DNA from: a virus
DNA: 28,367 nucleotides
Virus record (IMG/VR): IMGVR_UViG_3300049216_000037
Coordinates: 1-28,367 of that record
Strand: one strand, 5' to 3'
Part shown: one piece after another, positions 2,178-12,108 of the stretch
Layout of the letters: every line of letters starts with the position of its first letter
How positions within the stretch are numbered: position 1 is the stretch's first letter
Notes under the pieces: model-generated
The model's input: the letters and a program-made list of their open reading frames with translations, nothing else
Told to the model about the DNA's origin: nothing
Database searches by the model: none
Position numbers and translations under genes: made by a program

Positions 2178-3677
2178 ATGGCAAACAGTATAGTATCAGA
2201 AGCGGCAAGCATTCCCGGAGCCGCCTCTAAACCTAAGAAAACAAAAAACGGTAATACGGGGAAGCTACCCGCTAAGCCGGTATTACAGGTAGCAAAAAAG
2301 AAAGAGGTAGAAGCCTTGAAGGTGGAAACGCTTCAACAACTGCTGACCATGTTACCAGAGGGTGTTGAGTTCGGAGCCAAGCTGGAAGATGGCTCACATA
2401 AGAAGCCCACCCAAAAGGATTACTTGGTTAAAACCATCCGCATCCTTTTGAGGATTGTTGAAAACAACAACATCGGGCTATGCAGCCATAACGAGCAGAT
2501 TTATCTATTCAAAGGGAGCCATTGGAAGGCCATAAGCTCAAACGACTTTGAAAAGTTTCTCTGTCAGGCGGCAATAAAAATGGGTGTTGAGTCTACCACG
2601 GCTGAAATCTACGGTTTCAAGAAGCAGCTTGTAAAGCAGTTTTTGAGTACCGCCAACCTGACAACCCCGAAGCGGCTTAACAAATGCACCCTGATAAATC
2701 TACGCAATGGCACCTATCAGGTATGCGCGGATAACAGTAGCCTTCGGTCAGTTGCAAAGGAAGATTTCCTAACCTATCAGCTTCCCTTCGACTATGACCC
2801 CAAAGCCGAAGCCCCGGAGTTTATGAAGTACCTAAACAAGGTTCTACCGGAGAAGGAGCTACAAACGGCATTGGCTGAGTTTATGGGATATGTCTTTGCA
2901 AAGGATTTGAAGTTAGAAAAATGTCTCTTGTTATATGGAAGCGGAGCAAATGGTAAAAGCGTATTCTTCGAAATCATTAACGCGCTTTTGGGCAAAGACA
3001 ACGTTTCGAACTTCTCATTATCTGACCTGAATAAGGAGTACAACCGGGCACAGATTGCCGATAAGCTCCTTAACTACGGCAGCGAGATAAACAAATCCAT
3101 CGAAGGTGATAGATTCAAGCAGTTGGCTTCGGGTGAGCCTACACAAGCGAGGATGAAGTACAAAAATGCCGTCACCATTACGGACTATGCGCGGCTCATG
3201 TTCAATTGTAATGAGCTTCCTTCAACGGCTGAACAGACAGAGGCTTATTTCCGCCGCTTCCTTATCATCCCCTTCAAAGTCACCATTAAGGAAGGCGAGA
3301 GGGATGCAACCCTAGCTCAGCGGATAATTGAGAAAGAGTTGTCAGGGGTCTTTAACTGGATGCTGAAAGGTTTAAAAAGCATCTTGAAGAATCAGCGCTT
3401 TGTCGAAAGCAAGGTAATCAGCGACATCCTAAAGACCTATAAGGAGGAATCCGATACAGTGTTCCAGTTTATAAAGGATTTCAGCTATAGCCCCTCCAAG
3501 AATCAGAAGCAAACCTTTATCGAGGTCTACGGTGCATACACGGACTACTGCCAAAATTATGGCTTTAGACGCCTGACTAGCATCGCCTTTAGTAAGAAGA
3601 TGAGGGAACACAAGTTCGAAACTCATCGCGGGACCGGCGGAATCAAAGAAATCTACATCGAAGTTAAAAAAGTTTGA
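2178..3677 (+). CDS. D5/P4-type phage helicase (primase-helicase C-terminal type)
   Basis: 499 residues. Domains in order: a basic, low-complexity start (1-50), a D5_N-like domain (about 90-230), then an SF3 helicase/AAA+ core. The core has Walker A GSGANGKS near residues 254-261, a Walker B-like strand LLNYGSEI near 296-303 and the sensor motif FNCNELP near 342-348. A C-terminal winged-helix-like segment (about 430-499) follows. The family unwinds DNA at the phage or plasmid origin as a hexamer. No catalytic primase (AEP or TOPRIM) domain is visible, so priming must come from another protein. It stands alone behind a 260-base control region and is followed by a large inverted repeat. Confidence 0.88.
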   Translation: MANSIVSEAASIPGAASKPKKTKNGNTGKLPAKPVLQVAKKKEVEALKVETLQQLLTMLPEGVEFGAKLEDGSHKKPTQKDYLVKTIRILLRIVENNNIGLCSHNEQIYLFKGSHWKAISSNDFEKFLCQAAIKMGVESTTAEIYGFKKQLVKQFLSTANLTTPKRLNKCTLINLRNGTYQVCADNSSLRSVAKEDFLTYQLPFDYDPKAEAPEFMKYLNKVLPEKELQTALAEFMGYVFAKDLKLEKCLLLYGSGANGKSVFFEIINALLGKDNVSNFSLSDLNKEYNRAQIADKLLNYGSEINKSIEGDRFKQLASGEPTQARMKYKNAVTITDYARLMFNCNELPSTAEQTEAYFRRFLIIPFKVTIKEGERDATLAQRIIEKELSGVFNWMLKGLKSILKNQRFVESKVISDILKTYKEESDTVFQFIKDFSYSPSKNQKQTFIEVYGAYTDYCQNYGFRRLTSIAFSKKMREHKFETHRGTGGIKEIYIEVKKV

Positions 3678-5899: not shown

Positions 5900-6439
5900 T
5901 TAGTTGAAAGAAAAGGAATTGGCTCGACTAAGCCATTGAGATAAGAAGACATGATCTTCGGGATGAGATTGTACAACCGCCTGATAAAAGGCTATGCGCT
6001 CCCCTTTCATGGAATTGAAGAAGCACTCACCACACGCGCCGTTAATACCGGCTAGTGTAGCCGGGCCTACAATACCATCTTGAGGAAGGTTTAATATTTT
6101 CTGTGCATGTTTCACGGGTACAGACATACCGGCATTGACGCCCCAGTCTACGAGATAATTTGCGATACTCTGGTTTTGGATTTGGTCAGCCTTAACCTCA
6201 TTCCATTCATTGCATTTATAAAAGCACTCAACCATCGCCTCTAGTGCTGTATCGCTGTGCAAGCTGTGTGGGAAGTCTGGTTTGCTCTTGTGAGCATCAA
6301 CTAAGGCCCATCCTTGCCATTTAGGGTAATTATTGCGGGATATTCCCTCCCACGTTTCCCCGCCGCTATCGGCTGCCTGGTTGGCGTATCCCCCCTCTTG
6401 CTGAATGAGGATAGGGAAAAATTCTACGAAACTAGCCAT
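5900..6439 (-). CDS. Endolysin, GH108 family muramidase
   Basis: 179 residues. The N-terminus matches glycoside hydrolase family 108: Q-EGGYANQAADSGGETWEGI with the likely catalytic Glu at residue 15. The region around 100-115 (YLVDWGVNAGMSVPVKHAQ) continues the lysozyme-like fold. Residues about 117-135 (LPQDGIVGPATLAGI) form the start of a peptidoglycan-binding domain common in this family. The enzyme cuts the glycan backbone of peptidoglycan at lysis. No signal peptide is present, so it needs the holin. Its ATG shares one base with the stop of the upstream methyltransferase fragment (TAATG), which suggests coupled translation. Confidence 0.9.
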   Translation of the reverse strand: MASFVEFFPILIQQEGGYANQAADSGGETWEGISRNNYPKWQGWALVDAHKSKPDFPHSLHSDTALEAMVECFYKCNEWNEVKADQIQNQSIANYLVDWGVNAGMSVPVKHAQKILNLPQDGIVGPATLAGINGACGECFFNSMKGERIAFYQAVVQSHPEDHVFLSQWLSRANSFSFN

Positions 6440-10593: not shown

Positions 10594-11216
10594 TAGATAG
10601 GATTATAGAGGTAGAAGGCTTTTGCACAATCAAAACAATCGCTAGAAAGGGAACCAAACCGCCTTCCCCTACTCAGATTGACCGAAGTAGTATATTGGTT
10701 AGGATGAGGCGCAATGTCATCGATTGTTACAATCCGGAAGTAAGCCGGGAATAAAGAGGTGTTGGCCAAAAGGTAATTAGAAAGCTGCTGAGTAAACATT
10801 TCAGCGTTCTGCTTTGCATAAGCCTGATAACTTTCTAGGATATCCAGCGGGGCCGGTTGACTTGTATCGCTACTCTGCGAGGACAAACCCTTATTCATCA
10901 TCTTGTAGGTAGTGTACAACGGCAAATCCCGCAGCACAACCCATTTAAGTGCTGGCTTTATATAGACTTCAATGAGATTAATTTCATTCTGGTTTAGCGG
11001 GGTGCCTCCCGAAACATTATTAACCGTATCATAAATCTTATTTTGCAAGTCAACGTATAACCCAGTCCCTAACGTCGGCAACATATACTTCTGTTGACAA
11101 AGCATTATGATGGGTTTGATTATTTTCATGTCTACATTTTCATTAACTACGCCTTCCTCTTTTAAAGAGGCTTCGCTAAGAAACTGCACATTGTATGTTT
11201 GCGGGTTAAACGGCAT
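10593..11216 (-). CDS. Head-tail connector-like protein (DUF6712-like)
   Basis: 207 residues. The start (PFNPQTYNVQFLSEASLKEEG) and the central helical part (PIIMLCQQKYMLPTLGTGLY, then KPALKWVVLRDLPL) resemble a Bacteroidota phage family I associate with DUF6712, found between capsid and tail genes. The family presumably acts as a neck or head-completion protein. There is no signal peptide or membrane span. The C-terminus holds two Cys (SSDCFDCAKAFYLYNPI). The gene overlaps the end of the cytosine methyltransferase gene by 11 bases. The role is taken from gene context. Confidence 0.55.
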   Translation of the reverse strand: MPFNPQTYNVQFLSEASLKEEGVVNENVDMKIIKPIIMLCQQKYMLPTLGTGLYVDLQNKIYDTVNNVSGGTPLNQNEINLIEVYIKPALKWVVLRDLPLYTTYKMMNKGLSSQSSDTSQPAPLDILESYQAYAKQNAEMFTQQLSNYLLANTSLFPAYFRIVTIDDIAPHPNQYTTSVNLSRGRRFGSLSSDCFDCAKAFYLYNPI

Positions 11217-12108
11217 TGTATATTGTCTTTTCTGTTAGTTCAATTGCTTTAAAAATCTCCAAGGCTATTTGCGGTACAACCGCGTTACCAAAAGCTTTTA
11301 TACTTTCCCTTCTCCATTCGAAAAAGGGGATGTTATCCAATCGGAAGGGAAGCCCATCATTTCCGCGCAAAAGCGGGGATTCAGTTGGGAAGTCTGCCCA
11401 GGTTGACCGTTGGCCAACGCGTGTGCTGCATTCGCCAGAATTCCAAATTGTTTCTTTGGGTTGGTTCTCGTTACTCCACCTTTCGCATCGCTGAGGGTTG
11501 GAATTGGTAGAAGATTCGCCGCCAAGTAATGCGTAAGGCTCATATCCTTCAACCATCCCTTCGAGAATCCCTCTATTGTTGACTTGCGGAAATTGGTTAT
11601 TCCGCGACAATCCGAAACTGTGACAGTAGGCAACAAAGAAGATCCTTTCACGCCTATGTGGGGCATCGAGGCCGCAAGCTGGAAGTAATACCGGGAATAC
11701 TTCGTATCCCTCAGCTTCCAAGTCAGAGCACACCTGCTCGAATACCATACCGTTGTCCCAATTAACGATGCCGCGAACATTTTCCCCCACAACATAGCGG
11801 GGTTTAATCTCTCGTATCGCTCTAAGCATTTCAGGCCAGAGGTAACGACTGTCTGCCGTACCTTTTCTTCTTCCTGCTTGACTGAACGGCTGACAAGGAA
11901 AGCCGCCGGAAAGAAGGTCAATTCTTCCCCTGTGAATATTGAAAGCTGTGTCGATAATGTTTTCATAGGATATGGATTCCGGGAAATGGTGTTTCAATAC
12001 CCTCTGACAAAACGGGTCAATCTCACAGTGAAAGACATTCTCCCATCCCATTTGCTTCGCCGCATAATCAAACCCACCTATACCAGAGAATAAGGAAGCG
12101 TGTCTCAT
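11206..12108 (-). CDS. dcm: C5 cytosine-specific DNA methyltransferase
   Basis: 300 residues with all main motifs in order: I (LFSGIGGFDYA, 6-16), IV with the catalytic Cys (GGFPCQPFS, Cys72), VI (ENV, 109-111), VIII (HRRERIFF, 151-158), a target-recognition region (about 165-255), and IX/X (RRESIKAFGNAVVP, ending at 279). The enzyme transfers a methyl group from SAM to C5 of cytosine in a short site, which usually protects phage DNA from restriction. The target cannot be read from sequence. It lies inside the structural operon, 59 bases after the metallophosphoesterase gene. A 222-codon ORF is nested in its +1 frame. Confidence 0.93.
   Translation of the reverse strand: MRHASLFSGIGGFDYAAKQMGWENVFHCEIDPFCQRVLKHHFPESISYENIIDTAFNIHRGRIDLLSGGFPCQPFSQAGRRKGTADSRYLWPEMLRAIREIKPRYVVGENVRGIVNWDNGMVFEQVCSDLEAEGYEVFPVLLPACGLDAPHRRERIFFVAYCHSFGLSRNNQFPQVNNRGILEGMVEGYEPYALLGGESSTNSNPQRCERWSNENQPKETIWNSGECSTRVGQRSTWADFPTESPLLRGNDGLPFRLDNIPFFEWRRESIKAFGNAVVPQIALEIFKAIELTEKTIYNAV
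11298..11966 (-). CDS. Nested out-of-frame ORF inside the cytosine methyltransferase gene
   Basis: 222 codons without a stop, entirely inside the methyltransferase gene in its +1 frame, from ATG 11966 (MKTLSTQLSIFTGEEL). It is far longer than nearly all other shadow frames in the window. The translation has recognisable features: LTWKLRDTKYSRYYFQLAASMP in the middle (about 82-103), LLPTVTVSD and LPIPTLSDAKGG blocks, and a C-terminus LNPRFCAEMMGFPSDW (about 196-211). From memory, phage and bacterial proteins annotated as hypothetical or as methyltransferase-associated carry the same LPTPT and LNPxFVExMMGFPxxW blocks. This suggests a conserved overlapping gene. Expression and function are unknown; it could also be a by-product of conserved methyltransferase codons. 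Confidence 0.45.
   Translation of the reverse strand: MKTLSTQLSIFTGEELTFFPAAFLVSRSVKQEEEKVRQTVVTSGLKCLERYERLNPAMLWGKMFAASLIGTTVWYSSRCALTWKLRDTKYSRYYFQLAASMPHIGVKGSSLLPTVTVSDCRGITNFRKSTIEGFSKGWLKDMSLTHYLAANLLPIPTLSDAKGGVTRTNPKKQFGILANAAHALANGQPGQTSQLNPRFCAEMMGFPSDWITSPFSNGEGKV

Follow-up and report, generated by a model that had tools for sequence, protein, structure and literature searches.

The methyltransferase locus of a viral genome from IMG/VR (record IMGVR_UViG_3300049216_000037), analysed here as a window of 28,367 nt, very probably specifies, in overlapping reading frames, a C5-cytosine DNA methyltransferase of two subunits, in which alpha would be the catalytic polypeptide and beta would carry the target-recognition domain (TRD) and motif IX. 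The beta ORF starts with an ATG at 11966, ends with a stop codon at 11298-11300 on the minus strand, and lies entirely within alpha in the +1 register. A first-pass annotation had reported this 222-codon ORF inside a methyltransferase gene with exact coordinates, and the two residue blocks that it quoted, one of LPT type and one towards the C-terminus, are both present in the translation. The features of the locus, all on the minus strand, are as follows, with the evidence for each in parentheses.

11206-12108, minus: alpha, putative large subunit of a C5-cytosine methyltransferase, 300 aa (PF00145, phrog_363, AF2/Foldseek match to M.HhaI)
11298-11966, minus: beta, nested +1-frame ORF of 222 aa, probable TRD and motif IX subunit (phrog_1008, selection tests, conserved nesting)
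11890-11904, minus: alpha motif IV, GFPCQ, including the catalytic cysteine C72, overlapped by beta (translation; P71, C72 and Q73 invariant)
11644-11664, minus: alpha motif VIII, APHRRER, residues 149-155 (translation; A149, H151, R153 and R155 invariant)
11359-11580, minus: alpha residues 177-250, predicted disordered and poorly conserved filler at the expected place of the TRD (AF2 pLDDT <50; identity comparison)
11667-11729, minus: beta residues 80-100, conserved hairpin ALTWKLRDTKYSRYYFQLAAS (AF2 pLDDT about 90; W83, L97 and neighbouring residues conserved)
11610-11636, minus: beta repeat module 1, LLPTVTVSD, residues 111-119 (translation; module count)
11487-11513, minus: beta repeat module 2, LLPIPTLSD (translation; module count)
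11337-11384, minus: beta motif IX, LNPRFCAEMMGFPSDW, residues 195-210 (profile alignment to M.HhaI 268-296; PF00145 positions 269-296)
11269-11289, minus: alpha motif X, GNAVVPQ, 3' of the beta stop (G274 and N275 invariant)

Portal, DUF6712 and metallophosphoesterase genes are the phage neighbours of the pair, and a scan of neighbouring ORFs recognised no restriction endonuclease. The window also holds a D5-like primase/helicase (2178-3677; DUF5906, D5_N) and a GH108 endolysin (5900-6439) which, with the terminase and portal genes, identify the contig as a tailed phage. A small predicted protein at 3970-4461 matches the retroviral-type aspartyl protease families PF13975 and PF13650.

The chance of finding the +1 frame open had been put at (61/64)^222, but that null is inappropriate, as the codons here are not free to vary independently of the alpha protein. 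When the alpha protein and its codon usage were held fixed and synonymous codons were shuffled 2,000 times, 6.17 stops were expected in the +1 frame over the beta span, none was observed, and 0 of the 2,000 shuffles was free of stops. The +2 frame was unremarkable under the same shuffles (18 stops observed, 19.9 expected). Judged by these sequence counts, the beta ORF is a real gene.

The alpha frame matches phrog_363 in a profile search (E 2.3e-68), and its catalytic domain resembles that of M.HhaI both by profile and by predicted fold. It carries motifs I-VIII and X. The earlier statement that the methyltransferase frame has all catalytic motifs has to be corrected, as the PF00145 match of alpha is limited to profile positions 1-181 of 324 and motif IX (LNPRFCAEMMGFP) sits in the beta frame instead; neither the profile match nor the translation places a motif IX in the alpha frame of the window. 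Alpha is not, in other words, a full-length PF00145 single chain with the TRD and motif IX together. In the AF2 model, confidence is high over most of residues 1-170 and in the C-terminal helices, residues 177-250 are disordered, and alpha is predicted to be without a folded TRD of its own. In the TRD overlap, the identity of close pairs was.365 for alpha and.492 for beta. An alpha-frame block over the same bases as beta motif IX, WxxFPTQxPVCxGDDGLP (window 11337-11384), is conserved in many alphas and is easily mistaken for a methyltransferase motif, and it appears to be largely a shadow of that motif.

Beta matches the PHROGs profile phrog_1008 over residues 12-173 (E 4.6e-25); of the two curated libraries tested, Pfam gave a sub-threshold match only and NCBIfam gave no match. 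By profile, the C-terminus of beta falls on the motif IX region of M.HhaI (residues 268-296), and the sub-threshold PF00145 match places the same segment at positions 269-296. Eleven of the 12 PDB matches of the beta profile are to M.HhaI at motif IX, each of them weak (E about 0.9) and confined to one short motif. Between the N-terminal half and motif IX are repeats of the form LPTPxxxD, which by pattern count number 1-6 per protein among beta relatives and two in the window. AF2 modelled beta by itself with low confidence (mean pLDDT 60, pTM 0.27); the better parts of the model are the motif IX helix and the hairpin at residues 80-100, which has the only well-predicted strands. Because of this poor model, the assignment of the TRD to beta is based on its position, on the domain that alpha is missing and on motif IX, and we regard beta as the probable TRD and motif IX subunit.

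Codon positions 1, 2 and 3 of beta correspond to positions 2, 3 and 1 of alpha. Among 54 independent pairs, alpha third positions were the fastest to change outside the overlap (.455 in the N-terminal part,.496 in the C-terminal part) and were slower over motifs IV-VIII (.314). At motif IX the pattern was inverted, with the beta wobble position the fastest (.247 vs.154; 35 vs 9 pairs). Over the TRD the alpha-frame alignment is poor at 45-85% identity, and the substitution count was redone there on beta-frame alignments; aligned in this way, the beta wobble position was dominant in 23 of 23 pairs and the similarity of beta exceeded that of alpha in 49 of 54. In distant pairs, beta-frame identity was.404 over motifs IV-VIII and.649 over motif IX, against.273 and.254, respectively, from synonymous shuffles. 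Beta is thus conserved beyond the level that alpha forces, which is contrary to the refuting outcome that the first-pass annotation had named, homologues no more similar than methyltransferase conservation requires. The control +2 frame had a smaller excess (.348 vs.261), which reflects the double constraint on the DNA. These substitution and identity patterns indicate that each frame encodes a protein, alpha being the dominant frame in the catalytic part and beta in the TRD and motif IX part, and that beta is under selection at the protein level. Were the +1 ORF an untranslated by-product of the codon composition of alpha, some similarity between beta frames would still be expected, as an identity of 27% over motifs IV-VIII arises in the shuffles by themselves; this explanation has a negligible probability and is ruled out by the lack of any stop-free shuffle, the inverted substitution pattern at motif IX and the behaviour of the beta wobble position throughout the TRD pairs.

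The +1 register was found in 140 of 140 usable relatives selected by beta, a set that is biased to open +1 frames; only the window and a set selected by alpha are free of that bias. The latter comprises 78 alphas gathered by the alpha profile without reference to beta. A long +1 ORF is present in 78/78 of these genes, motif IX is in their own frame in 0/78, and a pattern search located it in the +1 frame in 72, the remaining six being variants or truncated. Stops in the +1 frame of homologues had been named as evidence that would count against a conserved pair; instead, beta is open in every intact relative. Among PF00145 genes of other genomes, 19 that were un-nested had motif IX in their own frame and +1 ORFs of 139 codons or fewer, and seven that were nested all lacked an own-frame motif IX; the automatic patterns missed some cases in this survey, and unmatched cases were read by eye. 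Eight more distant phage records are likewise nested, including coliphage K1G, Pseudomonas PMG1, Vibrio Baybae and Rhodobacter RcJoli. According to the taxa given in the records, the source genomes of the relatives belong to Bacteroidota, Bacillota, Pseudomonadota, Chloroflexota, Acidobacteriota, Patescibacteria and others. In a Gammaproteobacteria sample, beta matches occurred in 10 of 274 genomes, and M.EcoHK31I was not identified among them. Nesting thus appears to be universal for the alpha/beta family as sampled.

Sequencing or assembly error, with two frameshifts splitting a normal gene, was also considered, and three loci (L063, L080 and L088) do appear frameshifted. These copies seem to be broken, the two frames being fused or truncated by a frameshift within the TRD region. 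Error has almost no chance of being the general explanation and is ruled out by the recurrence of the arrangement in independent genomes and in finished phage records from many hosts. In one relative (L011, BK068099.1), beta alone is annotated and alpha, open over the same DNA, is uncalled.

Alpha with its motifs I-VIII and then beta with the TRD and motif IX could also be read as one split enzyme, and in phrog_116 both parts occur in a single chain in that order. Programmed ribosomal frameshifting in the overlap might therefore fuse the catalytic half of alpha to the TRD-motif IX half of beta, with no separate beta being made. We consider this unlikely. A frameshift fusion would be without motif X, and the N-terminal half of beta is itself conserved beyond the level forced by alpha. 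The beta ATG is conserved as well: 124 of 131 loci have a beta-frame ATG between 20 and 80 nt upstream of the PCQ codons, against 21% expected, a contrast that is inflated by the choice of these loci for an open beta. An in-frame stop precedes the ATG at a median of 27 nt upstream. In taxa that use Shine-Dalgarno sites, 67% have a site of this kind inside alpha that precedes the beta ATG, against 31% expected (18 loci); the remaining, mostly Bacteroidota loci do not. Together the ATG, the upstream stop and the Shine-Dalgarno-like sites favour independent initiation of beta over frameshifting.

The beta gene of M.EcoHK31I is likewise nested in its alpha gene in a different frame. In this E. coli enzyme, which recognises YGGCCR, the large polypeptide has motifs I-VIII and X and motif IX is on the small one (PMC3404938). 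The window pair is alike in both respects, with a large subunit that lacks motif IX and a second polypeptide that carries it, although we infer the translation of the window beta from selection. The TRD of M.EcoHK31I, unlike that of the window, which is apparently in beta, is predicted to be in the large subunit; because this published location is itself only a prediction, we describe the window pair as working like M.EcoHK31I and not as a strict member of the same type. M.EcoHK31I also comes from a restriction-modification system, whereas the scanned neighbours of the window pair included no recognised restriction gene. M.AquI (alpha/beta) is another C5-methyltransferase in two subunits, but it is split in the variable region, and its small subunit carries motif X as well as motif IX. 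The single-chain PF00145 enzymes M.HhaI and M.HaeIII share the catalytic fold of alpha and the motif IX of beta, and differ in that a single chain, read in one frame, holds both the TRD and motif IX.

The annotated members of phrog_1008 ("DNA methyltransferase") include K1G ORF30, a "Mte8-like protein" (profile E 1.3e-55), and LEYRA_62 of Paenibacillus phage Leyra (E 8.2e-74), both of which are nested, like the window beta, in the +1 frame of a C5-methylase. Both genes of the pair are annotated in K1G and in the Paenibacillus phages. Members of this family are named only as methyltransferase or methylase-like, and their subunit role and nesting are left unexplained in those records. C5-methyltransferase ORFs that overlap totally in another frame were published as striking in the streptococcal phages MM1 and 5093 and in Tn5252 (PMC5601072). 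The nested ORF of MM1 and 5093 is in the +1 register like the window beta; unlike in the window, however, motif IX (RKLTPRECWRLQGFP) is retained by the long frame, and the nested ORF, at about 142 aa, is shorter and lacks this motif. The overlapping ORFs of MM1 and 5093 are thus a related but distinct class. This second class of nested +1 ORF is seen at 7480-8637 of L307 (MM1) and 6067-7026 of L308 (5093), and the nested ORF of MM1 (SLSDILEEEVDERYFLS) resembles the stretch that follows motif VIII in classical enzymes. Searching the literature for accounts of such a pair as a single system turned up the streptococcal overlap (PMC5601072) and the two-polypeptide M.EcoHK31I (PMC3404938). The nested split arrangement is therefore already known from a few methyltransferases, but it is much commoner in phages than their annotation indicates; its breadth, the selection in two frames and the gain and loss of repeat modules are its points of interest.

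Unrelated nested genes do exist in phage methylase genes, as in the HNH ORF of the ShiLan insertion (PMC11855218), and beta could by the same token be a separate regulator or anti-defence protein that overlaps the methyltransferase by happenstance. This is improbable, slightly more so than frameshifting, given that motif IX is on beta, that alpha is without motif IX wherever beta is nested, and that alpha has no folded TRD. Of the two roles first suggested for the +1 product, a conserved partner of the methyltransferase is strongly supported, and a separate regulator or anti-defence protein is not. In the sequences compared beta is always nested, and because it carries the motif IX missing from alpha, it is most plausibly a component of the enzyme.

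In the proposed two-subunit enzyme, alpha (frame 0) would bind AdoMet and provide the catalytic Cys72, motif VIII and, at its C-terminus, the motif X helix, and beta, translated in the +1 frame from its own internal ATG, would form the small domain, with target recognition by LPTP-type modules and motif IX. One mRNA would give both polypeptides, and the enzyme assembled from them would methylate a specific sequence. Its role would most likely be to protect phage DNA from host restriction, self-protection being likely because the pair is surrounded by phage genes and the ORFs scanned included no recognised restriction endonuclease. Assembly of beta with alpha, recognition of DNA by the modules, methylation and the anti-restriction role are all deductions from this arrangement. 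The pair likely originated by two compensating frameshifts that moved the original TRD-motif IX segment out of frame; the C-terminal half of beta would then be the old frame, the middle of alpha would be filler, and the N-terminal half of beta would have been overprinted on alpha.

Two relatives (L002 and L004) have 97% DNA identity except for a net insertion of 135 nt that contains one LPTP module and leaves both frames open. Module exchange may thus alter specificity. It is possible, although we hold this only tentatively, that the LPTP-type repeats of beta are interchangeable target-recognition modules that are gained and lost as whole cassettes keeping both frames open. If so, phages would change or widen their methylation specificity in the +1 frame, and the disordered filler of alpha would absorb the change.

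Phage annotation often omits one gene of the pair: Porphyromonas phage phage018a has beta only, and most other records read have alpha only. If the two-subunit reading is true, a methylation test on alpha expressed by itself would be falsely negative. The alpha/beta family is a good natural test case for two proteins selected at once in two frames of the same DNA, and for changes in target recognition under a two-frame constraint.
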